Shown here one piece after another: positions 336 through 25,651 of a stretch of DNA of 64,000 bases. This DNA is from Desulfovibrio sp. MES5 (lineage in GTDB: Bacteria; Desulfobacterota; Desulfovibrionia; Desulfovibrionales; Desulfovibrionaceae). Location of the stretch: contig NZ_MJUZ01000015.1 of NCBI RefSeq assembly GCF_002237645.1, forward strand, positions 1-64,000. The letters run 5' to 3'. A program made the position numbers and the translations under genes. The notes under the pieces were generated by a model. That model was not told the DNA's origin. It did not search any database and worked only from the letters and a program-made list of their open reading frames with translations. Every line of letters starts with the position of its first letter. The stretch's first letter is position 1.

Positions 336-356
336 TACGTAAAAAGGGTACACGCT

Positions 357-1357: not shown

Positions 1358-1400
1358 TGTGGGGGAGGAGACCCTTTTACAAAAGGGTCCCTCCCCCACA
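1358..1400 (-). repeat. Conserved 3' hairpin repeat, terminator-like (tamB)
   Basis: Read on the minus strand this is a stem of about 20 bp with one bulge (arms beginning TGTGGGGGAGGGACCCTTTT and its complement). It lies 22 bases after the tamB stop and is followed by a C-rich run and TTTTACTGTTTTTT. The same sequence recurs 3' of livF, leuB and trmFO, always in gene sense. It probably ends tamA-tamB transcription. The remainder of the 1014-1422 gap shows no gene; it holds the start region of the acetyltransferase gene. Confidence 0.8.
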
Positions 1401-1422
1401 AAGCCTTTCAATTCTACCAGCT

Positions 1423-4400: not shown

Positions 4401-6720
4401 CGGTGAGGCGCACTGTGGCAGGGGCGGCCAGCATGTCCAGCGGATCAGCGCTTTCTTTGGTAGTGGCGGCCTGGGCAGCGGTCTGAGCGGGAGGCTGGAC
4501 GGCAGCCTGCGCAGCGGTTGCGGGCGTGCTTTTGGAGGGAGCAATGCTGATCTGCAAGTCCACATCCAGAGGGCCTGAAAGCCACGATGATCCCTGCGGG
4601 GAAGTTTTTTGCGACGGTGCGGTTTGCAATGGCGCAGCGTGTGAAGGCACGGCCTGCGTGGGTGCGGACTGTAGGGCTGCGGTCTGTGAAGGCGCATCTT
4701 GCGGTGATGCGGCCTGTTGTGCTGTTGCGGCCTGCGGGGGCGTACTCTGCTGTGTTGTTGCGGCCTGTGAAGATGGCGCTTGCGGGGTAGCGGTTTGCGC
4801 AGGGGCAGTCGACGGAGTTCCGGCCTGAGCAGGCTTCGCCAATGGTGACGCGGCCCGTGAAACTGCGCCGTGCTGTACAGCGCCCCCGGCAGGCGCGGCG
4901 GGCGTGCTTTGCCAAAAGGCATGCCCTGCCGTGGACAGCGGGCCAGCCTGAATGGAGAATTTGTTCAGGCCCACACGGGCGACGGTGGCCATGGCCTCCG
5001 GCGAACCCGGAGCGCCGGGTTTTTCGGGGGCTTCCACCTCCGCACCCAAAGCCAGCGAAATTCTGGCTCCACCGCCGAGCAACGTTGCCAGAGGGCCGGA
5101 GGCGGCATTTGCAGAGGTGTTGTCCACGCCCTGCGCGGGGGCTGCGGTGGTCACGGCAGTGGCGGGCGTGGGGGGCGTAGCGGCTGTGCCAGAAGCGGTG
5201 TTGGCCGTCGCGGGTGTGCTGCTGGCGGTTGCGCTTGTGGCGGCAGGGGTGGGTACAGTGGCTGTGGAGGCCGACGTAGCCTGACCAGCCTGTGCGTCCG
5301 CTCCGGCGGACGGGGCTGTGCGGGCGGCGTCCCCGGCATGTCCGGCAGGCAGTACCGTGGCTTCAAGCGTGCTGTCCACGGTCAGCGCCAGAGTTGAGGG
5401 CGAAACTGTTCCCGATCGGCGCGGGGTGAAATTCATTTCAAGGCGCGCTTCAAGGCCACCGCTGGGTACGCCGGTCAGGGGCAGAGGGGCGTCGTTTACG
5501 CCGTGGGCTGTCAGCAGGACTGTGAGATTGCCCCCCGTGCTTCCGGCCTTGAGGCTGGCTGCAACATTGGCCAGAAAATAACTGTCTGTGCGGAGGCTGG
5601 CATCGGGCAAACTGGCATCGGGCAAACTGGCTGCGGGCAGAGCCGCAGTGGGCGACGCTTCACCCTTGGCCACATCAGGAGTACTGGTGGCATCAGGAAT
5701 TACGGCGGTTGCAGCAGTTCCGGCAGCATTAGGGGTTCCGGGGGCGGGTGCGCCCGACATGTCCTGCCGGGCGGCGCTTTTGGCCGCGCCATGTTCTGCC
5801 GCGCCCGCGTTCTGGCCCTCAGCCGCACTGTTTCCGCTCCCGGCCGCCAGAGTATTGGTCGGAGTTTTGGCCGGGGTATTGGCAGAGGCGTCTGCCGAGG
5901 CATTGGCCGAAACATCGGGTTTGGCGTCTGCCGAGGCATCGGGCTTGGCGTCTGCCTTCGCATCTGTCCTGACATTGGCTGTGGTCCCGGCTGGCGGCAG
6001 TGCGCCAAGCAGGCTTGCAGGAAGCTGCGCATCCACAACGGCCACCCTGTCCAGAAGCACATCGGGCAGCCAGCCCGGCAAGGCGCTGATGGTACGCACG
6101 GTCTCGCCAAGCATTTCACGCAGCGACGCTTCCGTGAGCGGCGGCGAAGGGGGCTCGGGGGCAGACGGAGGCAGCTCGGGCAGGCGCAAGAGGCGTGCTC
6201 CGTTGCTGGTCAGTTCGGCAATGCGCATACGCCCCGGCAGGGCGGCCCAGTCCCAGACAAAGGTGTTCTGCGGCGCTTCAAGCCACAGGCCGTAGGCGTC
6301 GGCGAGTTCCACGCCCGCCTGCACTCTGAAGGGCAGAGCGCCCGAAAGGCTCGTCAAGCGGATATGCAGGCCGCTTTTTTCCGCAGAAGCGGCCAGAACG
6401 GCATTGACCTCATCCTTGATCCAGGCCTGGACGTTTTCATTGCGCAAGGCCAGCAGCACGCCAGCCAGAAAGAACAGCAGCAAAAGCAGCAGAAAGACCA
6501 GCCCGCGCCAGACCGCAGCCCAGATGCGGGCCGCCAGGCCCCGGTGTTTATCGTTCCCGCCGGGGCCCTGAGGCGTGCCCGTGCCAGCGCCAGCCACGCC
6601 AGAGGCGGCCGCGTCGGACGCCGTTACGCTGGATGGCGTTACGTCGGAAGCCCCGGTCCCGGCCCTGGAGCCGTCCGCCGTGGCGTCAGTCTGCGCGGGA
6701 TGTGTGGGTGCGCTCGTCAT
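1423..6720 (-). CDS. tamB: TamB-like translocation and assembly module protein
   Basis: A 1765-residue inner-membrane-anchored periplasmic protein of the TamB/DUF490 (AsmA-like) family, which with TamA helps insert outer-membrane proteins or move lipids. Residues about 63-90 form one membrane anchor (VFLLLLLLFFLAGVLLAL). A long repetitive beta region follows, and the conserved TamB domain occupies roughly the last 370 residues, with 'FLTKVFKLSRGTITFAGG' and 'DEILAQILFGKSTNELGRLE'. The start overlaps the tamA stop (ATGA), so the two are translationally coupled. Unusual are two long low-complexity stretches rich in Ala, Thr, Ser, Pro, Gln and Asp (roughly residues 235-370 and 470-930), which make it longer than typical family members. 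They are probably disordered linkers. Confidence 0.9.
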   Translation of the reverse strand: MTSAPTHPAQTDATADGSRAGTGASDVTPSSVTASDAAASGVAGAGTGTPQGPGGNDKHRGLAARIWAAVWRGLVFLLLLLLFFLAGVLLALRNENVQAWIKDEVNAVLAASAEKSGLHIRLTSLSGALPFRVQAGVELADAYGLWLEAPQNTFVWDWAALPGRMRIAELTSNGARLLRLPELPPSAPEPPSPPLTEASLREMLGETVRTISALPGWLPDVLLDRVAVVDAQLPASLLGALPPAGTTANVRTDAKADAKPDASADAKPDVSANASADASANTPAKTPTNTLAAGSGNSAAEGQNAGAAEHGAAKSAARQDMSGAPAPGTPNAAGTAATAVIPDATSTPDVAKGEASPTAALPAASLPDASLPDASLRTDSYFLANVAASLKAGSTGGNLTVLLTAHGVNDAPLPLTGVPSGGLEARLEMNFTPRRSGTVSPSTLALTVDSTLEATVLPAGHAGDAARTAPSAGADAQAGQATSASTATVPTPAATSATASSTPATANTASGTAATPPTPATAVTTAAPAQGVDNTSANAASGPLATLLGGGARISLALGAEVEAPEKPGAPGSPEAMATVARVGLNKFSIQAGPLSTAGHAFWQSTPAAPAGGAVQHGAVSRAASPLAKPAQAGTPSTAPAQTATPQAPSSQAATTQQSTPPQAATAQQAASPQDAPSQTAALQSAPTQAVPSHAAPLQTAPSQKTSPQGSSWLSGPLDVDLQISIAPSKSTPATAAQAAVQPPAQTAAQAATTKESADPLDMLAAPATVRLTAAGPLAAPDLTLRVECADLRMGTHKLEQAVVHLGAAPLNWQEALMVVQDHKQDIAAPNAAPTAPAAAPTKAPDAAPGESTAQRADAAPNKTATQAEDAPPKAASAKRPELTVQLDVSGRWDGQPLSLESQIFAGRGEEDMLQAGLRNLRLNALGLAAAGQVTASLPPGSMPACDGKIDVRVADWAALSTLVPGARLDGEAALSLELRADRVAVTTAASNTAAPNDQNGHSAVQAAKPSQSASENPPATPAVSGSPAAPASATAEPAQRYSQKAELRFNVPRLSYSAGASAPLTLRNLAGELALKDVFGPGSLAARIDLGNVRQGDLSLGVKVRANGALSGPLDASVETSGSVAANVNARWQPGLVQVQRLEAHVSGRDLGFRAAPGAALRYGDAGLDLKGLDIRLVPGGRLRAQAFLGQNKMDVRLDLEGLALTPWKKFVPALPEGTVEAQARLTGSPSQPGGNFRLGVRQLRIPSSPLKPLNVGLTGRIEASGGSSGSLVARLDMDKESVQALGGSEARLEVRLPLLFGKDGLPQPNMQGPLRGQVRWKGAAGPLWSLLPIADQRFAGNVAVNVDLDGTLAAPSAKGAVLVDKGKYENLLQGVLLTNINLRLNLEEGRGGGSGKKQGGLPGVARLELDASGGLGGKLRVAGFASLDGSRLDIKTTIDHLRPLSRRDIRIELSGEAGVTGSAAAPQVAGKIIVNQGLILLNKLAVGGSVTTLPITEAPDPSQVAQQAAAEKPAAQGSLNLNIVIPGRFFVEGHGLTSEWKADLLVTGTPEDPQITGQITAVKGTFDFLTKVFKLSRGTITFAGGALSNPLLDIKLSNETPNLTSYVTISGTVRKMKLTLSSEPEMPRDEILAQILFGKSTNELGRLENLRLAGAVAQLAGFGSGGGGIFDLTRKALGVDVLRLNSTPGTASGGQSEDEGMGAGTSVEMGKYITDIIYVGVQQGMKQGSTAFIIQLEITPRTSLELRSEQQSTWGGIRWKYNY

Positions 6721-8777
6721 CAGAAGGACTGCCCTATGCTCACGTAGATTTGTATGGGGGGATCGCCGTCCCTTGGTTGCAGGGGCGTGGCCACGTCCAG
6801 CCGCAGCGGTCCGATGGGCGTGAAATAGCGCAGACCAATGCCCGCGCCCCAGTCCATATCGCCCAGGATGCGGGGCACTTCGTCCCTGTAGACCATGCCG
6901 CCGTCCAGAAAGGGAACAATGCCCACATCATCGGTAATCTTGTAGCGCGCCTCCAGGCTGATTTCCTGAAAAGACCGCCCGCCCAGGGGATCGCCGTTTT
7001 TGTCCTCCGGCCCCACAGACTGGTAGGGATAGCCGCGCACCGACCCCGCGCCGCCAGCGTAGTAGCGCAGGCTGCCGGGAATATTGCGCAGGGCCGCGCC
7101 GGACATGGCCCCTGCCTCAACCCTGCCCGCCATGATCAGCTTGTCGTCGGGCCGCCCGTCTTTGTGGAAGGGCGCGTAGTAGCCGCTGGCTTCCAGCGAA
7201 CCGGCCATGACAGTAAAGCTTTCGCCGTAAAAACCTGTGTAGGGATTGGCTTTGACGGTGATTTCCGAACCGCGCGTGGGATTGAGAATATTATTGCGGC
7301 TGTCGCGCCGCACGCTGGCCTTGGGGCCAATGTAGCCGTAAAACTGTTCGGAGTTGTCGTTTTCCTTGATGGAGCCGCTCTGGCCCCCGGCCCCGAGGCT
7401 GGCCCACCAGAAGCGCGAGACGCGCCGCTCCAGCGCCGCAGAAACGCTGCCTGCCGTGCTTTTGTATGCCTCTGTATTTTCGCGCAGGGCCGAGGCGGAC
7501 GCCAGCAAACGCTGTTCGCGCACAAGAAAGGCGGGTTTTTCAAATGCCGCCTTGATGCCTTGAACCTGTGTGGCGATGGGGGCGCTGACCACGAGCTTTT
7601 CCCCATTGTCGAAAAGGTTGCGGTGTTCCCAGAAGCCTTCCACGCCGAGGCCCGTATCCGTGTCATACCGGGCGCTGCCGCCAACGGAACGGAAGGGCAG
7701 TTCGGCCACGGTCACTTCCAGAGGCAGCACGGGCACGCCGTCCTTGCTTCTGGTGGGAGCGCCGTTGGCAGCGGCGTCATTCTTGGCCAGCAGCTCTTCC
7801 TGCGGGCGTATCTCCACAGAGCGGAAGAGTCCCAGCCCGCGCAGGTTGTTGGCGTAATCGTCCATCAGCTCGGCGTCCCACGGCTCCTCGCCGGGAACCC
7901 AGGGGGCGAGCCTTTGCAGGTAGGCTGCGTTGACGCCCTCGTTGCCCTTCACGTCAATGCGCCCCATGAGGGCAGGCGGGCCGGGATCAATGGTGATGTC
8001 GGCGTTGACCTCGCGTTTTTCGCGGTCAAGGGTGTAGCGCGACTGGGTCACTGAGGCCAGGGGGTAGCCCTGTGTGCGCAGTTTTTCCGGCAGATCTTCA
8101 ACGGCGCTCAGCAGGGAGTCGGCCACCACGGGTTTGCCTACGGCGACCCCCGGCAGGGTTGCAGGAAAGGACGGCGGCGGCAGGGTTACTGTTTCCAGAC
8201 CCCAAAACCCCACTTCACGCTCACGGGTCTTGAAATAGCCGGGCACATCGGGCGGCGGGTCGTAACTTACGTTGGCGCGGCCCAGCGTGTAGCGCGGCCC
8301 GGCCGTAAGGGTGAGGGTCACGCGCACGGGCTTGGCTTCTTCGTCCAAGCTGAAGTCCGCTGTGCCCTCATAGTAGCATTGGGAGTGCAGAAGTTTGACC
8401 GCTGTTTCCACATCGGCGCGGGCGCGGCGTTCCAGGGCCAGCATGCTGTCGGGCGGCTCCTTGGCAAGCTGCTCCAGCTGACTCACGGACTTCATCTTGC
8501 CTTCAAGGGAGGATGGCCCGTTCTTGACCTTGATGCGAAGGGCATAGGGCACAGGATCCCCACGCCATGCGGCTTCAAGGGATTCCTGCTCTTTTTGCTC
8601 GTGGGGATCCTCAGTCTTTGCCGAAAGCAGGCCGCAGCCGGAAAGCTGCAGTAAGAGCAGCAGCGCGCAAAGAGCGCGTAGCGGCGCTAGCCAGGGGTCT
8701 GCGTGTTCGCCGGAGGGGTTTGGAGCATGGTGGGGCCGTGCGGGCCGCAGGATTTTTATGCTGAATACACTGCACAT
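6720..8777 (-). CDS. tamA: TamA-like outer-membrane assembly protein, possible lipoprotein
   Basis: A 685-residue BamA/TamA-family (Omp85) protein. POTRA-like repeats occupy about residues 60-360, followed by a 16-strand surface-antigen barrel (about 366-685) that ends in the C-terminal Phe expected for an outer-membrane barrel. Its partner tamB follows with an ATGA overlap. Residues 31-52 hold a hydrophobic segment ending in LSGC (Cys48), a good lipobox; ordinary TamA is not a lipoprotein, but the Bacteroidetes variant TamL is. The start is uncertain: the ATG at 8777 lacks a clear Shine-Dalgarno, yet no other ATG, GTG or TTG lies between it and the hydrophobic segment. Confidence 0.88.
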   Translation of the reverse strand: MCSVFSIKILRPARPHHAPNPSGEHADPWLAPLRALCALLLLLQLSGCGLLSAKTEDPHEQKEQESLEAAWRGDPVPYALRIKVKNGPSSLEGKMKSVSQLEQLAKEPPDSMLALERRARADVETAVKLLHSQCYYEGTADFSLDEEAKPVRVTLTLTAGPRYTLGRANVSYDPPPDVPGYFKTREREVGFWGLETVTLPPPSFPATLPGVAVGKPVVADSLLSAVEDLPEKLRTQGYPLASVTQSRYTLDREKREVNADITIDPGPPALMGRIDVKGNEGVNAAYLQRLAPWVPGEEPWDAELMDDYANNLRGLGLFRSVEIRPQEELLAKNDAAANGAPTRSKDGVPVLPLEVTVAELPFRSVGGSARYDTDTGLGVEGFWEHRNLFDNGEKLVVSAPIATQVQGIKAAFEKPAFLVREQRLLASASALRENTEAYKSTAGSVSAALERRVSRFWWASLGAGGQSGSIKENDNSEQFYGYIGPKASVRRDSRNNILNPTRGSEITVKANPYTGFYGESFTVMAGSLEASGYYAPFHKDGRPDDKLIMAGRVEAGAMSGAALRNIPGSLRYYAGGAGSVRGYPYQSVGPEDKNGDPLGGRSFQEISLEARYKITDDVGIVPFLDGGMVYRDEVPRILGDMDWGAGIGLRYFTPIGPLRLDVATPLQPRDGDPPIQIYVSIGQSF

Positions 8778-9576: not shown

Positions 9577-10410
9577 ATGAGATTCTTTGCGGATATTCTG
9601 GATACCGTGCGGCGGCGCGGCCCTGTGGTGCACTGCATTACAAACTACGTCACCGTGAACGACTGCGCCAACATAATCCTGGCCGCTGGCGGGTCGCCCA
9701 TAATGGCTGACGACATTGCTGAAGTGGAAGATGTGGCGACTCTGGCGCAGGCTCTGGTCATCAATATCGGCACGCTCAACAGCCGCACCGTTGAGGCTAT
9801 GATTGTTGCGGGCAGGCGCGCCAACAGTCTGGGACGGCCAGTGGTGCTTGATCCTGTGGGCGCGGGCGCTACGGCCCTGCGTAACAGCTCTTTGCAAAGC
9901 CTGTTGCGTGAAGTGCGTTTTGCGGCCATCAGGGGCAATGCTTCAGAAATTGGTTTTCTGGCTGGAGAGGACGCCAGAGCCAGAGGCGTGGACGCCGAGG
10001 ACGCCTCTCTTGTCACCGAGGGCAACCTCACGGGCGCGTGCGACATGGCCCGGCGGCTGAGCGACCGTACGGGGGCCGTGGTGGTGATCAGCGGAGCCAT
10101 AGATATTGTGGCCCATGCCCAGGGGGTATGGACGGTACGCAACGGACACCCGCTCATGGCGCGCATCACGGGCTCGGGCTGCATGTCGGCAGCCATCATC
10201 GGCTGCTGTCTTGGGGCTGCGCCCGACGAAGCGCCCCAGGCGTGTCTGTGCGCTGTAAGCAGCATGGGCGTGGCAGGAGAAATTGCCGCTGAAACTATGG
10301 TGGTTGGCGTCGGGGGCGGCACAGGCAGCTACCGCGCTCTGCTGATGGACGCCATGAGCATGCTTGACGGGCCAACGCTCACCTGCCGTGCCAACGTGAA
10401 AAACGTGTAG
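9577..10410 (+). CDS. thiM: Hydroxyethylthiazole kinase
   Basis: A 277-residue ThiM that phosphorylates 4-methyl-5-(2-hydroxyethyl)thiazole with ATP in the thiamine salvage pathway; a cytoplasmic enzyme of the ribokinase superfamily. Seen in the sequence are VHCITNYVTVNDCANIILAA at 18-37, DPVGAGAT at 92-99, and the catalytic loop TGSGC ending at Cys202. Length is typical. The start follows GGAAGGAG at a good distance. It stands alone, without thiD or thiE beside it, which fits salvage rather than de novo synthesis. A strong hairpin terminator lies about 155 bp downstream. Confidence 0.95.
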   Translation: MRFFADILDTVRRRGPVVHCITNYVTVNDCANIILAAGGSPIMADDIAEVEDVATLAQALVINIGTLNSRTVEAMIVAGRRANSLGRPVVLDPVGAGATALRNSSLQSLLREVRFAAIRGNASEIGFLAGEDARARGVDAEDASLVTEGNLTGACDMARRLSDRTGAVVVISGAIDIVAHAQGVWTVRNGHPLMARITGSGCMSAAIIGCCLGAAPDEAPQACLCAVSSMGVAGEIAAETMVVGVGGGTGSYRALLMDAMSMLDGPTLTCRANVKNV

Positions 10411-10752: not shown

Positions 10753-13700
10753 CTATGCCCACAGGACGAGGCCCGTTTCAAGCGGCGAGGCCAGGTCTTT
10801 ATGGAAGGGCATGACGCGAATGCCATAGCGGTACTGTCCGCTGTGCGTCGGTATGTAGGTGGCCGCATAGGTTTTGCCGCCATTGCCATTGTCTGAGTTG
10901 CGAGGCTCAAGCCGCAGTATTTCGGGTTTGTCGATGAAGTTGCCGTCAATAAGCGCGCGGCCAATAACAAGCTGGGCCAGGATTTCTTCGGGCTGCATTT
11001 CGCCAATGTGGATATGCAGACGGACGCTCACGGGGTCGCCGCAGATCATTGTATTGTTTTCCACGCCGCTGATGAGCATCTCCTCCACCTTGACGGTGCC
11101 GAACCGGGCGGGCAGGTCTTTTGCCCAGGCGGCCAGCTGGCGGCAGGCGGCCCAGTCGTTTTCAGCCAGCATGTTGCGGCGGCGCGCCGCCCGCAGGTAG
11201 TACTGGCGGATGTAGTCGTTGAGCATGCGGTTGCTGCTGTACATGGCGGTAAGGCTTTTGAGGGAGCGCTTGGCCATGGCGATCCACTGGGCGGGCAGGC
11301 CGTTCTGGTTGCGTTCAAAGTACAGGGGCAGCACGGCATTTTCCAGCAGGCCGTACAGGGATTCCGCGTCAATGTAGTCGTTCTGCTCGCTGCTGGGCAG
11401 TTCATTGGTGACTACGGGGCCGATGGTCCAGCCGTTTTGCCTGTTGTAGCCCTCGCACCACCAGCCGTCCGAGATGCTCAGGTTCACGCCGCCGTTGACG
11501 GGCAGTTTCATGCCGCTGGTGCCCGAAGCCTCGTGGGGACGGCGGGGCGTGTTGAGCCAGACGTCGCAGCCCTGCGACATGAGCCTCGACACGGCCAGAC
11601 TGTAGTTTTCAAGAAAGAAGATGCGCCCCAGAAAACGTTCGTCCTGGCACATGCGCATGACTTCCTGGATGAGGTTTATGCCTGCCTCATCCGCAGGATG
11701 CGCCTTGCCGGAAAAGACCAGAACCACAGGGCGGTCGGGATTGTTGAGAATGCGCGCCAGACGGTCGGGATCGGCAAAGAGCAGGGTGGCGCGCTTGTAG
11801 GGCGCAAACCGCCGGGCAAAGCCGATAATGAGTGTTTCGGGCTTGAGCAGAGCTTCCATATTCTTGCGGGTGACGGGGTCCAGCTTGAAGCGCTGGGCAA
11901 AGACGGGAACCCGCTTGCGCAGGGCGTCAAGCAGCGCCTCCTTCTGGTTCTGGCGGGCGGCCCAAAAGGCGTCGTCGGGGATTTCGTCCACCTTGTCCCA
12001 TGTGCCGGCGCCGGGCTGGGACTGCATCCAGCCGGAGCCAAGGTATTTGAGCAGCAGTTCATGCATCCAGCTGCCCACGTAGGAGGGGGTGTGCACGCCG
12101 TTGGTGACGTGTCCTATGGGCGTTTCCGCCGTGGGCAGGCCCTTCCACAACTTGTTCCACATGTGGCGCGAAACAACGCCGTGCAGGCGACTGACGCCGT
12201 TGGCCCAGCAGGAAAGGCGCAGGGCCAGCACGGTCATTTCAAAGGCCTGGCTGTCGCCGCCCTCGATCTGCCCCAGTGCGGTGAACTGCTGCCATGAAAG
12301 GTTGAGGCTTTGCGCCATGCCGGTGAAATAGCGGCCCATAAGTTCGAGAGAGAAGGATTCGTTGCCCGCCGATACGGGGGTGTGGGTGGTAAAGAGCGTG
12401 TTGGAGCGCACGCGCGTCATTGCTTCGTCATAGTCCATGCCCTGGGTCATGCAGTCGCGCACCCTTTCAAGAGCCATAAAGGCCGAATGCCCTTCATTCA
12501 TGTGATACACGCTGGGGATGATGTCCAGGGTACGCAGAAGGCGCATGCCGCCCTGACCCAGCAGGATTTCCTGCAGCAGCCGTGTTTCGCGGTTGGCTTC
12601 ATAGAGGCGGTCTGTGATGCGGCGGTCTTCATCGGTATTGCGGGGAGTGTCCGTATCCATAAGGTAGAGCGCCACCCGGCCTACCTGCAGCCGCCACACA
12701 CGGGCAAAGAGAATGCGCCCTGGCAGTTCCAGCTGCACATAAATGTCTTCTCCGAAGGCATCGTGCACCTGCTTTATGGGCATCTGGGCAAAGTTGTTGA
12801 CGGGATACTGCGCCACCTGGCGGCCATTGGAGTCGATCTCCTGCATGAAGTAGCCGCTCTTGTAGAGCAGGCCTATGCCCACCAGAGGCAGGGCCATGTC
12901 CGAAGCGGACTTGAGATGGTCGCCTGAAAGAACGCCAAGGCCGCCGGAATAGATGGGTATGGACTCGCTGAGCCCGTATTCCGTAGAAAAGTAGACAATG
13001 GGGTGTTCTGGCGTCACGTCCTGGCTGAGGGAGCGGATGGGTTCGGCCATATAGGCGTCAAAGCTCTCCATTACCTTGTGGTACATGTCCATGTATTCTT
13101 CGTTGGCCATGAGCTCCTTGAAGCGGGCGGGCCATGCCTCTTCAAGCATCCTCAGCGGATTGCGGCAGGCTTCCCACAACTGGGGGTTCAGGGCCATGAA
13201 AAGGGCCTTGGCGTAGTCGTGCCAGCACCACCAGATGTTCTGGGCAAGTTCGCGCAGGCGGGCAAGCTCGCGGGGCACTTCGGCCACAGCCATGATGGGC
13301 CGCAGAAAGGGCGTGGCCGAGCAGGAGGCCGTGAGCACCCGCGTGAGCGCGCCGTGGCCTGCGTCGTGATCGGCGCGGGTTTCAGATTTGGTAAGAGCGA
13401 TATGAAAAGCCTTCAGGTAGTTATCGAAAAAATAACTCCAGGATGTTTTTTCGGCCAGGGCGCGGGCGTAGCCGCGCCAGGTGTGCAGGTCTTCGGCAGG
13501 GCAGGCGGCGGCAACAAGTACTTTTTCGTGCAGCACATTGGCGCTCTGCTCAAAGTTCATGCCGCGCCGGGGCATGACGTACACGCCCCTGTGATCCATG
13601 CCCGCTTGCTTCATCTGTTCCCTGGCCCACATGCCGAAGCCCGAAAGGTCGGTAGTGAGAGTGGGCACGGCCCAGGCAGCGCTTTCCTGCGGCGTATAGC

Positions 13701-15009
13701 CCCAGGGCTCGTACCAGGAGGGGAAGAAACCCACGTCGCAGGCAGCAAGGATTTCTTCGTAGGGCATATTCAAAAAGCCGTCGTGCCCGTCGAGCATGGC
13801 GGGCACAAAGATTACCTTGATGCGCCGTTCCGGCCTGTTGTTGAGCCCGAGACGGCGGCAGGCGTTGATAATGGGATCCTGCGGGGCATTCCACACATAG
13901 TGGGTGCAGATGAAGGGCTGGCCGTTGTCCGTGTCTGCCGGGTCGCCGGACACAGCCGCTGGGTTGACGCCCGTGTGGCCGCCCATAACCATGCAGAGAA
14001 CAAGAATGGAAGTGTCCGTGCCGGACAGGTTGCGGTCGGCCTGGGCCAGGGCGTCCAGAAAAATGTCCACGCCCTTGTTGTGCATCTCGTAGCGGCCTGA
14101 AATGATGAAAATGCGGGTGTGCTCCGGCAGGGGGCCGCGCAAGAAGCGCCCTGCGGCTTCCATTATCTTTGCCCTCGTGGCCGAAGGCACGCTGCGGTCT
14201 TCGGAATAATCGGGTATGACGCGCAGATCCAGACCGTTGGTGGTGATGACGTCGGGCTGGCGGCCCAGAAATACCGTGGATTCCTCGCCGGTGATGGGGC
14301 TCACGGTGGTAAAGGCGTCGGCCTCGCGCGCGGCTGTGCTCTCCATGGACCATTTGGCCGTGATGTTCAGCGCCGCCGCCTCGTTGGCCGGGTTGATGTT
14401 GCGCATGTTGGTGTAGATGTCGCGGCCAGTGGCGGCCAGGGCGCGGCCAAGCATGGTGGCGTGGGTGGTAAAGACCGTGCCCACCCCCGGCGCGAGCTTT
14501 TTGACAGTGAGCAGGCCTGCCGCGCACATCCATTCGTGAAAAAGGGCCACGCTGTGCCCCTGCATGGGCTCCACCCGTCTTTCGTGCACGGCGGCGATGA
14601 CTTCACCGCAGGTGGCGGCGAACATGACGGGCTCAATATAGTCCCACCCGCCGGAAAGGGAGTCCACGCCGTAGTTTTTCCACATTTCAAAAAGCAGCTG
14701 GTTGCTGGCATAGCGCTTGTCAAACTCCACCAGTATGACCTTGGGGCGTCCGGGGATGTTCCAGCGGCCCAGACGGCATTTGAGGTCGCGGGTGGCAAGG
14801 CCTATGCGCAGTGAATCCCAGGCGTGCTCGTCGGTTTCTTCAAAGCCGGGGTTCTCTTTCAGGGCCGGGCCCAGAAGAAAGTAGTCTTCACCGAAATGTT
14901 CCACGGCCTGAAGCGCCTTGCTGGTGACGACAGAGTGAATGCCGCCCACCTTGTTGCATACTTCCCAGCTCACTTCAAACAGGGTTACCAGGGAGGAATT
15001 GAAGTCCAT
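10753..15009 (-). CDS. Fused GT3 glycogen synthase and GT35 alpha-glucan phosphorylase
   Basis: A 1418-residue fusion. Residues 1-560 resemble the eukaryotic-type GT3 glycogen synthase: FEVSWEVCNKVGGI near the N-terminus, LFHEWMCAAGLL, FTTHATMLGRAL, and the retaining E-x7-E motif EPWGYTPQE (Glu434, Glu442). From about residue 573 begins an alpha-glucan phosphorylase of the DUF3417/GT35 type (ELAQNIWWCWHDYAKALF, FSTEYGLSESIPIYSGGLG), with the pyridoxal-phosphate Lys at 1168 in HEASGTSGMKLPVNGG. It is expected to extend glycogen from a sugar nucleotide and to degrade it with phosphate, so both opposing steps sit on one chain. It is last in a four-gene minus-strand glycogen cluster. Confidence 0.9.
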   Translation of the reverse strand: MDFNSSLVTLFEVSWEVCNKVGGIHSVVTSKALQAVEHFGEDYFLLGPALKENPGFEETDEHAWDSLRIGLATRDLKCRLGRWNIPGRPKVILVEFDKRYASNQLLFEMWKNYGVDSLSGGWDYIEPVMFAATCGEVIAAVHERRVEPMQGHSVALFHEWMCAAGLLTVKKLAPGVGTVFTTHATMLGRALAATGRDIYTNMRNINPANEAAALNITAKWSMESTAAREADAFTTVSPITGEESTVFLGRQPDVITTNGLDLRVIPDYSEDRSVPSATRAKIMEAAGRFLRGPLPEHTRIFIISGRYEMHNKGVDIFLDALAQADRNLSGTDTSILVLCMVMGGHTGVNPAAVSGDPADTDNGQPFICTHYVWNAPQDPIINACRRLGLNNRPERRIKVIFVPAMLDGHDGFLNMPYEEILAACDVGFFPSWYEPWGYTPQESAAWAVPTLTTDLSGFGMWAREQMKQAGMDHRGVYVMPRRGMNFEQSANVLHEKVLVAAACPAEDLHTWRGYARALAEKTSWSYFFDNYLKAFHIALTKSETRADHDAGHGALTRVLTASCSATPFLRPIMAVAEVPRELARLRELAQNIWWCWHDYAKALFMALNPQLWEACRNPLRMLEEAWPARFKELMANEEYMDMYHKVMESFDAYMAEPIRSLSQDVTPEHPIVYFSTEYGLSESIPIYSGGLGVLSGDHLKSASDMALPLVGIGLLYKSGYFMQEIDSNGRQVAQYPVNNFAQMPIKQVHDAFGEDIYVQLELPGRILFARVWRLQVGRVALYLMDTDTPRNTDEDRRITDRLYEANRETRLLQEILLGQGGMRLLRTLDIIPSVYHMNEGHSAFMALERVRDCMTQGMDYDEAMTRVRSNTLFTTHTPVSAGNESFSLELMGRYFTGMAQSLNLSWQQFTALGQIEGGDSQAFEMTVLALRLSCWANGVSRLHGVVSRHMWNKLWKGLPTAETPIGHVTNGVHTPSYVGSWMHELLLKYLGSGWMQSQPGAGTWDKVDEIPDDAFWAARQNQKEALLDALRKRVPVFAQRFKLDPVTRKNMEALLKPETLIIGFARRFAPYKRATLLFADPDRLARILNNPDRPVVLVFSGKAHPADEAGINLIQEVMRMCQDERFLGRIFFLENYSLAVSRLMSQGCDVWLNTPRRPHEASGTSGMKLPVNGGVNLSISDGWWCEGYNRQNGWTIGPVVTNELPSSEQNDYIDAESLYGLLENAVLPLYFERNQNGLPAQWIAMAKRSLKSLTAMYSSNRMLNDYIRQYYLRAARRRNMLAENDWAACRQLAAWAKDLPARFGTVKVEEMLISGVENNTMICGDPVSVRLHIHIGEMQPEEILAQLVIGRALIDGNFIDKPEILRLEPRNSDNGNGGKTYAATYIPTHSGQYRYGIRVMPFHKDLASPLETGLVLWA

Positions 15010-15265
15010 GTCATCTCCTTGCTCAAGATATCAGTAAGGGCCGTAACTGTGGGGAGTGGCCCCATCGTGTTGGAGTATCCGCTTCAGGGCAGTTTCGCAG
15101 ATCATGCTGCGGCCAGCCGTAAGGCTTATCCGTCGCCCGACGGCTGCCGCGTGAAAGCGCCCTGGCGGGGGGCGTGCAGACGCTCGCCGTGAAGGCGCAA
15201 CTGCGGGGCAGATGCGCGGCTACGCGCCCTTGCAGGCGCGCCGTCGCCCTGGCGAGAGCGTGTTA

Positions 15266-16717
15266 TCAAGGCTGATCCGCTCCTGCGGGCGAAGCGGCGG
15301 GCTTTTTTTCTTTTGTGGCGGCCCCGGCCTTTGCGCTGGCTTTATTGCCCGGCGTTTGTTTTTTGTCAGCCACTGTTTTCTCGCCTGGCGCAGCTTTTTT
15401 GCCTGGCGCAGTTTTCTTGACGGGGGCTTTTTCCGCAGTTTTGGGCTGCGCCTTGCGGCTTTGGCCTGTACGGCGTTTTGCAGGAGCGTCTTTCGCCGGG
15501 GCTGCCTTCGCCGGGGCAGGAATCTTTTGCGGTTCTTCAACGACCTTGAGGCGCATTTCAAAGTCCGCCAGCACGTTCATGAACGTGATGTAGGCGTCAT
15601 AGGGGCTGCCGAACGGGCTTGGCCTGTCCGGGGCTTCGCTGGAGAACCACTTGGTGGACATGTGGCGGAAGTGGTCGGCGGTCTGCAACCTGTCGAAATC
15701 ATGGCGCAGTTCTGCCGATCCGCTGCGATCCACCCGAGAGGCCAGGGCGTAGAGGGCGTGTATGGCGTCTTTTTGCATGTCGTTGCCAAGCCACGCGGTG
15801 AGATCGCCGCTCTCGTCTTCCCAGGATATGAACTGGGGAATATCCATATTTCCGACAGGATTGAACTTTTTTACCGCCATGGCGGGCGTGGCGAAGTGAA
15901 AATCCTTGCGGGCCAGCAGGGCCTCCGGCAGGGCTTCCATAAAGTCAAAGATGCCCGAGTCCTTGCTGTGTCGCAGACCAAAGACGTGATAGTCATTGAT
16001 AATATTGATGATGTCGGCTGCATCGGCCAAGCCGTGGCACCAGGAAGCGAAGGTGTCGGCCGTGAGGGGCCATGCGGGCCATGCCGTGTCGGAAAAGCGC
16101 AGGCCTATATCGTTGGAAAGGCTGGTGTTGCGCAGCAGCAGGCCAAGCCCCGGCGCGCTGGCAGGCTGGTACAGGTAGTTGGCGCTGCGCCAGCCCAGCA
16201 CCTGATCCGTGCCCTCGGCCAGCACGGCCTTGAAGCCGAGTTCTGCCACCGCGACGGCGAGATCGTTGTTGTACACGCATTCCGTATGCTTGAAGGTCAC
16301 GGGCTTGACGCCGAAGAGCTTTTTCAGGCGGGCCGTCTGTGCCTGCACCTGACGGTCAAACTCCTGGCGGGAATAGAGAAAGGCCAGGGAATGCGGCGCG
16401 GTCTCGGCCACAAATTCCACGCAGCCTGTTTGCGCCAGGGCCGTAAAGCTTTCAAGCACTTCAGGAACGTACTGTTCAAAGAGGTCAAGAGCCGTGCCCG
16501 AAATGGCGTAGGACACGCGAAAGTCCTTGCCGTAGCGGCGGATGAGCTTGAGCATGAGCTCATTGGCGGGCAGGTAGCACAGACGGGCCGCGCGCAGCAT
16601 GGCGTCGCAGTTGTGGTCGTCGTCTTCATAGATGGAATTCTGGCCCATATCAAAAACCGTATAGCGGCGTAGCTGATAAGGTTCGTGAACCTCATAGCAC
16701 AGGCATATGGCTGTCAT
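15266..16717 (-). CDS. GH57 alpha-amylase-like protein with basic tail
   Basis: A 483-residue glycoside hydrolase family 57 protein. The N-terminus MTAICLCYEVHEPYQLRRY and 'CYLPANELMLKLI' are typical. The nucleophile motif HTECVYNND places the catalytic Glu at 146. In motif four the aligned acid Asp is kept (Asp242, in NDYHVFGLRH), but the surrounding residues differ from the common DYETFGEHQ, so activity or specificity may be altered. From about residue 400 to the end is a Lys/Ala/Pro tail resembling histone H1 or AlgP tails. The start at 16717 overlaps the stop of the preceding glycosyltransferase gene (ATGA) and follows GGAGG; longer starts are unlikely. Confidence 0.88.
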   Translation of the reverse strand: MTAICLCYEVHEPYQLRRYTVFDMGQNSIYEDDDHNCDAMLRAARLCYLPANELMLKLIRRYGKDFRVSYAISGTALDLFEQYVPEVLESFTALAQTGCVEFVAETAPHSLAFLYSRQEFDRQVQAQTARLKKLFGVKPVTFKHTECVYNNDLAVAVAELGFKAVLAEGTDQVLGWRSANYLYQPASAPGLGLLLRNTSLSNDIGLRFSDTAWPAWPLTADTFASWCHGLADAADIINIINDYHVFGLRHSKDSGIFDFMEALPEALLARKDFHFATPAMAVKKFNPVGNMDIPQFISWEDESGDLTAWLGNDMQKDAIHALYALASRVDRSGSAELRHDFDRLQTADHFRHMSTKWFSSEAPDRPSPFGSPYDAYITFMNVLADFEMRLKVVEEPQKIPAPAKAAPAKDAPAKRRTGQSRKAQPKTAEKAPVKKTAPGKKAAPGEKTVADKKQTPGNKASAKAGAATKEKKPAASPAGADQP

Positions 16718-18072
16718 TGGCGACCTCCGTGTACGTTGTGGTAAATGGCCAGCAACTGGTCGGCGGCATTTTCCCAACGGATGGACTTCATTTCTTCGCG
16801 GCAGTTTTTAACAAGTTCCGCCGCGAGGCAGGGATAGCGCAGGACGGCGCAGATTTTGTCCGCCATGTCGCGGGTATCCCAGAAATCGGCTTTAAGGGCG
16901 TGATCCAGCACTTCGGATACGCCCGATTGGCGTGAGAGCAGCACGGGAACGTCGTAGAGCATGGCCTCAAGAGGCGTTATGCCGAACGGCTCGGAAACGG
17001 ACGGCATGACGTACAGATCGCTGAGGGCAAACATGCGGTCCACTTCTTCGCCCTGCAGAAAACCGGCAAAGTGAAAGCGGCTGCCCATGCGCAACTGGCC
17101 AGCCCGGCGGATGAGACGTGGCAGCATGTCGCCGCTGCCAGCCATGAAAAACCGCACGTTGGGGATTTTTTGCAGCACCAGCCGTGCGGCTTCCATGAAA
17201 TATTCCGGCCCTTTCTGAAAGGTGACGCGGCCCAGAAAAAGCACGCGCTTTTCGTGCCGGATGCGCGGCGGGATGGGATAATGGCGCTGGGCCTCGTGAC
17301 GGGCCACGGCGTTGTGCACGACCATGACCTTTTCAGGGGGTATGCCGTAACGTTCGACGACGGTTCTGCGGGTCAGGCGGCTCACGGCCACCACAACATC
17401 GGCGGCCAGCATCCCCGCCCGTTCGATGCCCGCCACCTGCTCGTTGATGTCGCTTCCACTGCGGTCGTATTCGGTGGCGTGAATGTGGACGACAAGGGGT
17501 TTGCCCGTGAGGGTTTTGGCCAGCATGCCCGCGGGATAGGTCATCCAGTCATGGGCGTGGATGACGTCGAAGTCTTCCTGAACAGCCAGAGCTGCGGAGA
17601 GGCGGCTGTAGCGCAGCACCTCGTCCATAAGGCTGGGGCCGTATCCGCCTTGCAGCGAATAGGTGAATGTTTGGGATTGACGGAATTCTTCCTCTCCCGC
17701 CTGACGTTGCGCCAGGCAATACGGCGCTTCCGCGCAGGCGCGGCCGCTGAGACGGCCCAGCGCGCCAACGTAATCCTGCGGGGTAAGATAGGGCATGAGC
17801 GGACTGTCCACTGGCAGGCAGCGTATGCCGTTGCGCCAGACTTCCTGTTGCGCCCAGTCCATGCGCTGTATCAGGTCTTCAGTGATGGGAGTTCCGGATG
17901 CCGAACGCAGGCGCAGAAATTCTCCCCGTCCCTTGCTGTCGTCGATACGGGGCAGTACAAAGATTATTTCCGCTCCCCTGCGGGCCAGGGCCTGGGTCAT
18001 GCCAAAGCAGGCTGTGCCCAGACCTCCGCTGATGTGAGGCGGGAACTCCCAGCCGAACATAAGCACTCGCAT
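16714..18072 (-). CDS. GT4-family glycosyltransferase, glycogen-associated
   Basis: A 452-residue GT-B glycosyltransferase. The N-terminal domain begins MRVLMFGWEFPPHISGGLGT, the glycine loop of the glycogen/starch-synthase-like group. The C-terminal domain carries VLFLGRVTFQKGPEYFMEAA and the retaining E-x7-E motif EPFGITPLE. Within a glycogen cluster it probably makes or primes an alpha-1,4-glucan, or makes maltose-1-phosphate-like intermediates; donor and acceptor are not determinable. It overlaps the GH57 gene by four bases, implying translational coupling. A possible TATAAT box at 18309-18314 (minus strand) lies about 240 bp upstream. Confidence 0.88.
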   Translation of the reverse strand: MRVLMFGWEFPPHISGGLGTACFGMTQALARRGAEIIFVLPRIDDSKGRGEFLRLRSASGTPITEDLIQRMDWAQQEVWRNGIRCLPVDSPLMPYLTPQDYVGALGRLSGRACAEAPYCLAQRQAGEEEFRQSQTFTYSLQGGYGPSLMDEVLRYSRLSAALAVQEDFDVIHAHDWMTYPAGMLAKTLTGKPLVVHIHATEYDRSGSDINEQVAGIERAGMLAADVVVAVSRLTRRTVVERYGIPPEKVMVVHNAVARHEAQRHYPIPPRIRHEKRVLFLGRVTFQKGPEYFMEAARLVLQKIPNVRFFMAGSGDMLPRLIRRAGQLRMGSRFHFAGFLQGEEVDRMFALSDLYVMPSVSEPFGITPLEAMLYDVPVLLSRQSGVSEVLDHALKADFWDTRDMADKICAVLRYPCLAAELVKNCREEMKSIRWENAADQLLAIYHNVHGGRQ

Positions 18073-18480: not shown

Positions 18481-20634
18481 CTAGCCGGACGATCCTTCCT
18501 CCGGTGTGGCGACCGGCGCGCACGAGTGATGTTTTTTGCAGCCTTCCAAATTCATGCTCACGCGGCAGACCCCCGCCGTATCGCCAATGACGGGGTGGGC
18601 CATGCGGTGGGCCGCCAGTTTCTGCCAGCGCTCGTAGACTGCGGGCGCGGCTTTTTGCAGCCGCAGCAAAAGACGCAGGCACTCGGCCACACTCCAGGCC
18701 TGGGCGATGCAGCCATTGGGTTTGTACGGGGGCGATCCGTCAAAAACTTCAGAAATGCTGCCCAGACCCGCCTGGGAAATATGGTCGCAGTAGAGCGGCG
18801 TGAGCGTGTCCAGAAGCGCCATGGCAGCGCCGTCCACATCCCAGGCCGTGCGCAGCAGGGCGTCCGCGTAGTGCCCGAGAAGCCAGGGCCAGACCGTACC
18901 CTGGTGGTAGGCCGCGTCCCGGCTGGCCGGGCCGCCGTCGTACCGTCCCTTGTAGTGCAGGTCGTCCGGGGCCAGAGTGCGCAGCCCATAAGGCGTGAGC
19001 AGTTTGTTGCGCACGCACTCCACCACCTGGGGCTGATAGTCTTCAGACAGCACGGGATGGGGCAGGGAGACCGCGAAAATCTGGTTGGGCCGCACGCTGG
19101 CGTCGAGTTTGCCGTTCTGCCAGACGTCGCCAAGGTAGCCCCCGCCGCCGTAAACCCAGAAGCGCTGGAAAAATGCCGTGCGCATGCGGCGCAAAAGCAT
19201 GTCGCCCGCAAGGGGCTCTTCGCCAAAGCGCGCGGCGAGCTGGTCCGCAAAGGCCAGGGTGTTGTACCAGAGGGCATTGATTTCAACAGGGCAGCCCTGC
19301 CGGGGCGTCACAGGGGCATTGTCGGCCTGCGCGTCCATCCATGTGAGCTGGCTGTGGGCGTTGCCTGCGTGCAGCAGGCCCTCTGCGTCCACGTGTATGT
19401 CCAGCTGTCTGGCCCTGCCCGCGCCCGCGCGGTAGCCCGAAATGACCGCCTTCAGCGCGGGCCAGGCATTTTCACGCACCCAGGCGAGATGCCCGGCGTC
19501 AACCTCAAGGCAGCTTTGCAGCGCAAAGGCGTACCACAGGGCGGCGTCCACGGAATTGTATGCATGGTTGCCCTGCGGCGAAAACATATTGGGGATAAGC
19601 CCGTCTTCGACATGTCTGCCCATTTCGGCCAGAACGCGCAGGCCAAAATCCGTACGGCCAGCATGAAAGGTCAGGCCCGGCAGGCTGATGAGCGTGTCGC
19701 GGCCCCAGGCGTCAAACCAGTGGTAGCCCGCCAGCACCTCGGGCCTCCCCGACGGGGATTCGATGCAGAACTGACGCCCGACCTGGCCGAGGTGCCCCGT
19801 GAGTCCGATGCTGGCCTTGTGGGCCTTGGCGCGTTCGCGGCTGGCGGCATCCCACATCTGGTGCAGGTCCTGCCTGCAGGGATGCGTCCCCGCTGCCAGA
19901 TAGACGCAGCTTTCCGCGCCGTCGGCAAGGGGGGGCATGCCCACGTCCAGCACGCCCGGCATAAAGAGGTCTTCGCTGTAGGGAAAGCCGCGCTCGCGTT
20001 CTTCAAGGTATTCCACATTGCGGCACCAGTCTGGGCGGGGCGTGAAAGAATGACGCTGGCTTGTCTGGCACTGTATGTAGAGCGTGGGCAGGCCTTCATA
20101 GGGGGTGATGCTGAAGCCGTCTGACAATGGGGTGGTTTCTGAGCGCAGGTCGGGATTGGCGTGGGTAAGCTTATGAAAATTGCGGTAGGCCAGCAGGGGG
20201 CGCAGGCGTAGCGTCAGCGGCGGCACGGGAGTTGGCCCGCGCACGCTGAAGCGCATCAGGAGCAGGCTTTCACCCCGGACAAGCTGGACTTCACGGCACA
20301 GGCGCACGTCGCCGACGCGGTAAACGCACTGGGGCCACTGGTCCAGGCGGAAGGCCTCAAGGTAGTCGTGCCCGTGGGGATAGAGCGTGCCGGGATGCTG
20401 GCGTGTGGAAAGCGTAAATTCCTTGCCGCCGCCCATGATGGACTCTTCAAGGGCGGAGAGCAGCACGTGGCGGCCATAGGGCGTATTGACCGTAAGCAGG
20501 CCATGGTATTTCCGCGTATTGCAGCAAAGGATGGTGCTGCTGGCGTAGTCGCCAAGGCCATTGGTGAGCAGCCATTCCTTGCGCAACGCTCTGCGGGTGT
20601 TCTGGCAGGCGGCTTTGTCAAAGCTGAACCGCAT
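18481..20634 (-). CDS. Glycogen debranching enzyme (amylo-alpha-1,6-glucosidase)
   Basis: A 717-residue bacterial glycogen debranching enzyme of the GDE_N/GDE_C type. It acts on alpha-1,6 branch points of glycogen, presumably in the cytoplasm. The N-terminal part has 'TNGLGDYASSTILCCNTRKYHGLL', and the C-terminal (alpha/alpha)6 barrel has 'AGYHWFDAWGRDTLISLPGL', 'PNQIFAVSLPHPVLSEDYQP' and 'GTVWPWLLGHYADAL', all hallmarks of the family. The start at 20634 follows AGGGAGG six bases away; the open frame continues further upstream without family-like sequence. It is the first gene of the glycogen cluster in transcription order and is divergent from livK. Confidence 0.92.
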   Translation of the reverse strand: MRFSFDKAACQNTRRALRKEWLLTNGLGDYASSTILCCNTRKYHGLLTVNTPYGRHVLLSALEESIMGGGKEFTLSTRQHPGTLYPHGHDYLEAFRLDQWPQCVYRVGDVRLCREVQLVRGESLLLMRFSVRGPTPVPPLTLRLRPLLAYRNFHKLTHANPDLRSETTPLSDGFSITPYEGLPTLYIQCQTSQRHSFTPRPDWCRNVEYLEERERGFPYSEDLFMPGVLDVGMPPLADGAESCVYLAAGTHPCRQDLHQMWDAASRERAKAHKASIGLTGHLGQVGRQFCIESPSGRPEVLAGYHWFDAWGRDTLISLPGLTFHAGRTDFGLRVLAEMGRHVEDGLIPNMFSPQGNHAYNSVDAALWYAFALQSCLEVDAGHLAWVRENAWPALKAVISGYRAGAGRARQLDIHVDAEGLLHAGNAHSQLTWMDAQADNAPVTPRQGCPVEINALWYNTLAFADQLAARFGEEPLAGDMLLRRMRTAFFQRFWVYGGGGYLGDVWQNGKLDASVRPNQIFAVSLPHPVLSEDYQPQVVECVRNKLLTPYGLRTLAPDDLHYKGRYDGGPASRDAAYHQGTVWPWLLGHYADALLRTAWDVDGAAMALLDTLTPLYCDHISQAGLGSISEVFDGSPPYKPNGCIAQAWSVAECLRLLLRLQKAAPAVYERWQKLAAHRMAHPVIGDTAGVCRVSMNLEGCKKHHSCAPVATPEEGSSG

Positions 20635-21600
20635 ACAGCCTCCCTGGCGGTACGGGTGCTTATGGGAAGAGCGCTGCGTGAGGCGAGGAGGGGTGGTGAG
20701 GTCGCAGCGGGCCTGTGTGAGACTGCTGAAGGTGTGGAACCGGGAGGCAAAGAGAACCGCGCGGGCCGGGCGGAAAGAATGCTTGCGGCAGCGCTCCGTC
20801 ATGCGGCGCCTTTGAATCGCCATAAGCAAGTTTCTGCCCGAAGCACGGTTGCGGCGCACGCCGCGTACAGGGCGACTGCACCTTTCCTGCCTCTTTGGCA
20901 TTTATCGTACCGCATGTTTTTATATCTGTCGAGTTTTACAGCTTTGCTTCAGAATTGTGGCAGAGTGCATACAGGCGGGATCGCCAGTGCGTGGCCGTTT
21001 ATTTGCGCTATTTTTCGTCCGGAGCGGACAGGGTTTGCGCATATACATTTGCAACGCTTAAGCCGCGTCTTTGTGGCGCGCAGCAGCCCAAATTGATTGG
21101 GTTTATGTCGTATTCAGGGGGCGATTGCCCGAGGGTCGGCCTGCGTGCTGCAAAATGAAAGGCCCGTCAGGGCGGATTGCCGGAAGAACAGGCATCTCCC
21201 AAGAGTTGCGCCGTCGGGATTGTTACGGCTGGGTGTGCCATGGCTGTTGCGGCGCACAGTTTCGTGGCAAGGGGCCGCGCATTGCGGCCTGCGCGTTTTT
21301 ACCACGCAACAAAGGCTACGATGCCCGTTTCGCCTGCCTCGCCTGCCGTGTCCCTCTCCTCCGTGCTGATCAGGGCTCCGCGCCCGTCACGCTGTCACGT
21401 CCGTTACTCCCGTCATGTTGGCGCGCGCAGCAGGGGACGCCCCCAAAAGCGCCGTCCGTGTTCTCTGAGACATCCCGGAAGGGCATTCCCGATTGTATCA
21501 GCAGGGATTACGGGCAAAAAATCTGGGCTTTTTCTTTTTGGCGTTTTAGGGTATGCTATTTCGTTACTATCATCATCGCACAACGGACGGGGGATTTTTT
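20635..21600. other. Long divergent intergenic region
   Basis: This 966-bp gap separates the divergent debranching enzyme gene and livK. Open frames inside it have no family-like features and overlap each other, so I call no gene. A small inverted repeat (CCCAA, five bases, TTGGG) lies near 21088-21102, and a TATGCT box near 21552 could serve livK. Nothing else is recognised. Confidence 0.5.
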
Positions 21601-22929: not shown

Positions 22930-23835
22930 ATGGAACAGTTTTTACAACAGCTTTTGAACGGTCTTGCCGTGGGCGGTATCTATGCCCTGGTGGCCCTGGG
23001 ATACACGATGGTGTACGGCGTGCTGAAGCTTATCAACTTCGCGCACGGCGACCTGTTCACCATTGGGGCCTACCTTGGTCTGACCCTGCTTGTGAGCTGC
23101 AATTTTTCAGGCATGCTCAGCCCCATGCTGGCTGTGCTGGCCGTCTTTGTCATGGTCGCCCTGCTGGTCGCCATTATCGGCTTTCTTCTGGAGCGTACGG
23201 CTTACCGTCCCTTGCGGAAGGCAAACCGCCTTTCCGCCGTGGTTTCGGCCCTTGGGGCCTCCATATTTTTTCAGAACGCCATCATGCTCATCTATGGCGC
23301 GCGCTTTTACGTCTACCCCGACTACCTCAGGCCCGACTTTACGGTGCACCTGTTCGGCCTGGCCGTTCCCGGGGTGCGCCTGCTGGTCATTGCGGCCAGC
23401 GTCATCCTCATGCTTGGCCTCTGGGCCTTTATCCAGCGTTCGCGCACCGGCGCGGCCATTCGCGCTGTGGCCATTGACCCCGGCGCGGCGCAGCTTATGG
23501 GCATCAACGTGGACCGCATCATCAGCCTGGTCTTTCTTATTGGGCCGGGGCTTGGCGGCGCGGCCGGGCTTATGGTGGGCATCTACTACGGGCAGATCGA
23601 CTTTACCATGGGCTGGACTTACGGCCTCAAGGCCTTTACCGCCGCCATCCTGGGCGGCATAGGCAATATTCCCGGAGCCATGATAGGCGGGCTTTTGCTG
23701 GGCGTTATCGAAGCCCTGGCAGCAGGCTATATAGCCATTGCATGGAAGGACGCCATTGCCTTTTTTGTGCTTATTCTCATTCTTATCATCCGCCCCACGG
23801 GCATTCTGGGCGAGCGCACGGCGGACAAGCTATGA
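22930..23835 (+). CDS. livH: Branched-chain amino acid ABC transporter, LivH permease
   Basis: A 301-residue inner-membrane permease with about eight hydrophobic segments. The N-terminus MEQFLQQLLNGLAVGGIYAL and the segment 'MVYGVLKLINFAHGDLF' are the standard LivH signature. The start at 22930 is chosen over longer in-frame options because the family begins here; AAGGGT lies about ten bases upstream. Its stop overlaps the start of livM. It forms the membrane channel with LivM. Confidence 0.95.
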   Translation: MEQFLQQLLNGLAVGGIYALVALGYTMVYGVLKLINFAHGDLFTIGAYLGLTLLVSCNFSGMLSPMLAVLAVFVMVALLVAIIGFLLERTAYRPLRKANRLSAVVSALGASIFFQNAIMLIYGARFYVYPDYLRPDFTVHLFGLAVPGVRLLVIAASVILMLGLWAFIQRSRTGAAIRAVAIDPGAAQLMGINVDRIISLVFLIGPGLGGAAGLMVGIYYGQIDFTMGWTYGLKAFTAAILGGIGNIPGAMIGGLLLGVIEALAAGYIAIAWKDAIAFFVLILILIIRPTGILGERTADKL

Positions 23836-25648: not shown

Positions 25649-25651
25649 GCC

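Follow-up and report, generated by a model that had tools for sequence, protein, structure and literature searches.

In textbook glycogen metabolism, synthase and phosphorylase are separate enzymes under opposite regulation. Glycogen enzymes do occur joined in one chain, as in TreS-Mak, GlgB-MalQ, and GlgA-GlgB, although none of these, as described in the excerpt consulted, joins a synthase to a phosphorylase (PMC11046441). We found no description of a synthase-phosphorylase fusion in the open-licence literature. Here, we describe such a fusion, encoded on the minus strand at positions 10753-15009 of a 64,000-nucleotide stretch of DNA from Desulfovibrio sp. MES5 (contig NZ_MJUZ01000015.1, positions 1 to 64,000; hereafter the window). 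A glycogen synthase of glycosyltransferase family 3 (GT3) is followed in a single chain by an alpha-glucan phosphorylase of family 35 (GT35). Judged by residue conservation, the fusion with both active sites preserved is present in at least three bacterial phyla, namely, Bacteroidota, Planctomycetota, and Desulfobacterota. It is likely, in our assessment, that the protein is a working two-way, tethered synthase/phosphorylase acting on one polymer.

One chain, two enzyme families

The gene and its parts are arranged as follows.

10753-15009, minus strand: fused GT3 glycogen synthase and GT35 alpha-glucan phosphorylase gene, 1418 amino acids (open reading frame, Pfam, NCBIfam)
13366-15009, minus strand: GT3 half, residues 1-548 (Pfam, solved-chain matches, model)
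13684-13710, minus strand: E434-x7-E442 motif (residue index, alignment of fused proteins)
13276-13365, minus strand: interdomain linker, approximately residues 549-578 (model confidence)
12958-13278, minus strand: DUF3417, residues 578-684, the N-terminal part of a TIGR02094-type phosphorylase (Pfam)
11194-12999, minus strand: GT35 catalytic part, residues 671-1272 (TIGR02094)
11506-11508, minus strand: K1168 in EASGTSGMK, by alignment the counterpart of the lysine in the EASGTGNMK motif of a solved phosphorylase
10756-11193, minus strand: C-terminal extension of the phosphorylase half, residues 1273-1418, beyond the TIGR02094 match

A sequence-only reading of the window had proposed that a GT3 synthase and a pyridoxal phosphate (PLP)-dependent phosphorylase with its lysine share one chain, and both parts of this proposal are borne out. 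The frame is open without interruption, starting from an ATG at 15009 with a Shine-Dalgarno-like AAGGAG immediately 5′; plus-strand frames over it (e.g., 11008-12297 and 13003-14100) are taken as shadows. The N-terminal half matches the Pfam model Glycogen_syn (PF05693) at 324.7 bits (E 1.7e-96, in two stretches, the best at 12-342; cut-off 27), as against 31.6 bits for the GT5 model Glyco_transf_5 (PF08323). Its 12 matches among solved chains (E up to 0.001) are every one named glycogen synthase, and those at E <0.001 are eukaryotic glycogen synthases only. The disparity between the two Pfam scores, together with these eukaryotic GT3 matches, rules out a GT5 (GlgA) origin. The C-terminal half reaches 809.1 bits against TIGR02094, above its cut-off of 191.7, and matches Phosphorylase (PF00343) at E 2.6e-24; its first solved-chain match, extending over 831 residues, is 9l6i, an alpha-glucan family phosphorylase.

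Structure prediction is in accord with this partition. The AlphaFold model of the GT3 half has a mean predicted local distance difference test score (pLDDT) of 91.9 and a predicted template-modelling score (pTM) of 0.90. A fold search with this model (Foldseek and VIA-align) returned human, yeast, and 4qlb glycogen synthases in the top 20 rows (Z 34.7-40 over 526-543 residues; the next row has Z 28.1), 4qlb being the Caenorhabditis elegans enzyme. In a model of residues 1-1200 (mean pLDDT 86.1), pTM is 0.56 and pLDDT falls below 50 at linker residues 549-574. These values fit a pair of bodies that lack a firm interface and are flexibly tethered, which suggests two folded halves joined by a flexible linker of about 26-30 residues.

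Active-site residues in both halves

Seven GT3 and eight GT35 positions were followed through 117 fused proteins, close relatives among them. All 117 keep H183, R306, and E442 of the GT3 half; K312 and E434 are kept in 116 and R189 in 115. We take R306, K312, E434, and E442 to be the E-x7-E motif and the arginine and lysine of the GT3 donor site, by alignment to solved enzymes. The phosphorylase half is invariant at every position tested: H876, R1066, R1067, K1072, N838, and E839 are unchanged in 117/117, as are E1160 and K1168 in the 116 rows with a letter there (row L032 ends before E1160). By the same kind of alignment, K1168 is presumably the PLP lysine, and R1067 and K1072 the phosphate-site arginine and lysine of GT35. 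The sequence-only reading had numbered E434, E442, and K1168 correctly and called both catalytic sets intact, a view that these counts uphold.

A short bacterial type of GT3

The N-terminal half had also been likened to the animal and fungal enzymes. As to family this stands; as to subgroup it does not. Two bacterial GT3 types were recovered in our genome samples, a short one, found in the fusion, and a long, stand-alone one that matches PF05693 in one piece at about 560-710 bits in unfused frames of 607-774 amino acids. The distance from the GRYE motif to the following TH motif is 55-61 residues in nine short rows versus 108-111 in nine long rows (9 of the 21 long loci). An R-x-R-I-x-x-R cluster, presumably the arginine cluster of the eukaryotic glucose-6-phosphate switch, is present in all nine long rows and in the human chain, and in none of the nine short rows. 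The long loci in question (L159-L179) come from the Bacteroidota and Planctomycetota samples, and the nine compared retain the eukaryotic cluster, which makes them candidates for glucose-6-phosphate activation. In a GT3 tree of 56 fused, 2 split, and 9 of the 21 long rows, the short fused type stands apart from the long bacterial GT3s with support 100. By these sequence criteria, the fused GT3 half is a short bacterial type outside the animal- and yeast-like long type. Extra helices allow eukaryotic glycogen synthases to form tetramers, according to the excerpt consulted (PMC11046441), so the fused form probably assembles differently.

Phyletic distribution

The range of the fusion, which the sequence-only reading had marked for scrutiny, is wide and uneven. 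Among 61 related genomes, the source genome included, a match was found in 34, amounting to 34 of the 37 of its own genus and 0 of the 24 from other genera of the order; the three genus members without one are small (1.4-1.6 Mb). Thirty-two of these matches lie in frames of at least 1383 amino acids, and the remaining two (617 and 1191) run off contig ends. A sample of 395 genomes of the phylum yielded 19 GT3s above the cut-off, 12 in the source genus and 7 spread over five other families, all in frames of 1418-1481 amino acids; the GT35 half itself was identified in 16 of these genomes and judged from frame length alone in 3. A scan of named sequences, which favours full-length matches and of which the best 80 of 587 were kept as loci, gave single fused frames at 80/80 (two are truncated at the 3′ limit of their locus, and three run to the 5′ limit). 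As recorded, these best 80 comprise 63 Bacteroidota, 8 Thermodesulfobacteriota, 3 Planctomycetota, 3 “Deltaproteobacteria,” which by taxonomy are Myxococcota, and 3 unplaced loci. The closest named relative among the matches listed is Desulfovibrio sp. MAG (metagenome-assembled genome) L087, with 90% identity in either half. That all 19 GT3 frames in the phylum sample are of this length and all 80 kept loci are fused argues that the fusion is no chance join; recurrence of long fused frames across related genomes rules out chance read-through or an assembly artefact.

In an even draw of 345 Bacteroidota genomes, 14 exceeded the cut-off, of which 11 are long and unfused, 2 split, and 1 fused, the last in the centre genome, which was picked because it is fused. 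With no fusion in this draw beyond that genome, the arrangement is uncommon and patchy in Bacteroidota, which limits its generality. Among 343 Planctomycetota genomes, 54 exceeded the cut-off: 16 long and unfused; 32 in frames of at least 1251 amino acids, without individual confirmation of the GT35 half; 5 truncated at contig ends or divided between two contigs, one of them (G878) also carrying in-frame stops; and 1 weak match, where tblastn with the halves of the source protein found nothing. In the phylum, Bacteroidota, and Planctomycetota samples, at most three candidates were scored per genome, so short GT3s may have been missed. The samples cover bacterial GT3s, which limits what they say on where the fusion arose.

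Two-gene relatives

The halves also occur as two adjacent genes at six loci, two from the Bacteroidota sample (L194 and L195) and four from the records of Bacteroides finegoldii, Parabacteroides distasonis, Phocaeicola massiliensis, and Prevotella sp. oral taxon 299; at each, a stop codon is followed by an ATG 27-73 bases on. The four records come from a plasmid collection in which only 4 of 440 matching records covered 80% of the query; the Prevotella record is 1.77 Mb, which makes its “plasmid” label doubtful. In a joint tree of 43 fused and 6 split rows, the split rows form one clade (support 100) inside the fused Bacteroidota, and a single change of state suffices. When the fused Planctomycetota and Desulfobacterota serve as the outgroup, splitting is the simpler reading, and the two-gene arrangement is probably a later split of the fusion, to judge from the trees. 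We do not favour a scheme in which the halves fused twice in Bacteroidota, or one in which the split came first there: a clade of fused Bacteroidota only (37 rows held together) is rejected in an approximately unbiased (AU) test (p-AU 2e-5; LG+G4 quick tree, two trees compared), a result weakened by the group having been named after the tree had been seen. In a GT35 tree built from 56 fused rows, 2 split rows, and the best 30 of the stand-alone loci, 29 of these 30 group as one set (support 99); the exception, L233, sits on a long branch attached with support 42.

The glycogen cassette and its genome

The fusion sits in a cassette with a debranching enzyme, a family 4 glycosyltransferase (GT4), and a family 57 glycoside hydrolase (GH57), all three upstream on the same strand and identified by profile search.

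15266-16777, minus strand: GH57 glycoside hydrolase; likely start ATG at 16717
16714-18072, minus strand: GT4-type glycosyltransferase
18481-20901, minus strand: amylo-alpha-1,6-glucosidase (debranching enzyme, GDE_N and GDE_C)

The GT4 stop and the GH57 start overlap in an ATGA at 16717-16714, which suggests that their translation is coupled. Neither protein exceeds a curated NCBIfam cut-off; the GT4 might start new chains. The plus-strand frame at 15212-16672, opposite GH57, has no Pfam match. Among the 53 named loci that extend 5 kb or more upstream of the fusion, the same three partners precede it on its own strand in 35; in five Bacteroidota loci they lie downstream instead. Where 5 kb is available on both sides (42 named loci), all three are present in 31 and none in 9. 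GT4 and GH57 often travel together across phyla.

The source genome contains one GT3, one TIGR02094 match, and one GH57; profile searches found no other GT3 and no classical GT5. Its only PF08323 matches are the cassette GT4 and the fused GT3 half, and among its six nucleotidyltransferases one is above the GalU cut-off and none above that of GlgC. From the presence of GalU, no GlgC having been found, and the restricted PF08323 matches, the sugar donor is likely UDP-glucose (uridine diphosphate glucose). The sole GH13 protein (L242, contig C32) is a branching enzyme nearest to the human enzyme 4bzy (E 1.9e-121) and to plant enzymes, the first GlgB-named row following at E 1.3e-44. Lying nearer to eukaryotic enzymes than to classical GlgB, it suggests that more than one part of the pathway looks eukaryote-like. 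Prevotella bryantii, according to the excerpts consulted, is without glgC and has a UDP-glucose-dependent, eukaryote-like synthase (PMC7935935; PMC4432691); the split Prevotella locus compared here belongs to sp. oral taxon 299. Polyglucose storage has been reported for Desulfovibrio gigas (PMC4287179).

Elsewhere in the window, adjoining TamB-like and Omp85-like genes (1423-6720 and 6720-8777, both minus strand) form an outer-membrane assembly pair, a hydroxyethylthiazole kinase family gene (9577-10410, plus strand) lies directly downstream of the fusion on the opposite strand, and a branched-chain amino acid type ABC transporter permease with two ATPases is found at 23742-26362 (plus strand).

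A probable two-way enzyme and its alternatives

How might such an enzyme work? Taking glucose from UDP-glucose, the GT3 half would extend an intracellular alpha-1,4-glucan at its non-reducing ends. The GT35 half, carrying pyridoxal phosphate on K1168, would use phosphate to take the same glucose off again, releasing glucose-1-phosphate. The flexible linker would hold both halves in a fixed 1:1 ratio on the same granule, and the supply of substrates, UDP-glucose versus phosphate, would decide the net direction in place of the arginine-cluster switch of the animal and yeast enzymes, which is missing here. The debranching enzyme, GH57, and GT4 nearby, with the branching enzyme elsewhere in the genome, would complete the glycogen store. 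The join itself, the family assignments, the retained catalytic residues, the cassette, the phyletic range, and the occurrence of split forms are established from sequence; the two activities, the donor, the common polymer, the flexible tether, control by substrate, and the secondary nature of the split are inferred. A stronger version holds that a conserved two-headed enzyme senses UDP-glucose versus phosphate and runs one polymer end both ways, that it is regulated without phosphorylation or glucose-6-phosphate, and that the form in gut Bacteroides and Prevotella is a later split; taken as a whole, we advance this only tentatively, as possible.

Several observations weigh against a working two-way enzyme. 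K20 of the KVGG motif is kept in 103 of the 117 fused proteins and replaced in 14. One fused member (L123, protein at 345-4601) carries E434 to D, K312 to R, and R189 to C with its phosphorylase residues intact, and its GT3 half may be dead, with synthase activity lost. The fusion is lacking in 3 of the 37 genus genomes and in every one of the 24 genomes sampled from the order's other genera, and the family has split at least once, which indicates that the joint is not essential. In the model of residues 1-1200, pLDDT is also low at 1154-1164, near K1168, and at 1179-1200; this and the low pTM may be effects of cutting the model at residue 1200. Finally, our search of the open-licence literature found no report of activity for any fused member.

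The substitutions in L123 would fit a reading in which only the phosphorylase half works and the GT3 half is a glucan-binding or regulatory module. We regard this as quite improbable, given that each tested GT3 residue, K20 excepted, persists in 115-117 of the 117 rows, which span three phyla, that in relatives the GT3 half is conserved at least as well as the GT35 half (46.9 vs. 41.1% in L064; 52.8 vs. 47.5% in L068), and that the source genome offers no second GT3 or classical GT5. Phosphorylases are reversible, and the physical tie of this one to a synthase fits a scheme in which both halves are mainly synthetic, the phosphorylase making or extending primers from glucose-1-phosphate for the GT3 to elongate and so replacing glycogenin. 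The debranching enzyme of the cassette points to breakdown too, and with a single TIGR02094 match in the genome the store might be stranded were the fusion not to degrade it; we consider a mainly synthetic role unlikely. A glycogen cycle, serving energy spilling or rapid flux control and not storage, draws on a review that, in the excerpt consulted, describes Fibrobacter as cycling glycogen and P. bryantii as spilling energy and notes a flux-control role proposed for some futile cycles (PMC4432691). The same excerpt lists the mechanism of spilling in P. bryantii as not determined (PMC4432691), and the one Prevotella record compared has the split form. We judge cycling as the purpose of the fusion to be the least probable of these proposals, and highly improbable. 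The tethered, two-way synthase/phosphorylase is the reading that we favour.

Comparison with known systems

Both halves belong to known families, and their split or stand-alone relatives are already routinely named; it is the joined form that is apparently unreported. The eukaryotic GT3 enzymes (yeast Gsy2p, human GYS1) have the E-x7-E and GRYE...NKG motifs in common with the fused GT3 half, although only about 20 residues of the human stretch between residues 368 and 440 are matched in it, and they carry the R-x-R-I-x-x-R cluster, whereas the fused half is without it and is joined to GT35. The long stand-alone bacterial GT3s share PF05693 with the fused half and occur in the Planctomycetota and Bacteroidota samples, but they have the insert and arginine cluster, unlike the short type. 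On the phosphorylase side, 9l6i (TIGR02094, GlgP) has DUF3417 and a catalytic part as in the fusion, with query residues 573-1406 aligned at E 2.7e-181, yet it is a stand-alone chain of 852 amino acids. It is very close to the Prevotella split phosphorylase half (1686 bits), so one half of the system already has structures.

The split pair of Bacteroides, Phocaeicola, Parabacteroides, and Prevotella consists of the same two proteins in the same order as the fusion, but as two genes; two of the records are annotated, one as glycogen/starch synthase plus glycosyltransferase family 1, the other as glycosyltransferase plus glgP. The split form may be why work on Bacteroides and Prevotella would miss the joined form. 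The fusion poses the question of how tethering opposed enzymes affects flux, cycling, and granule size, and the split Bacteroides and Prevotella form provides the natural comparison for the fused enzyme.

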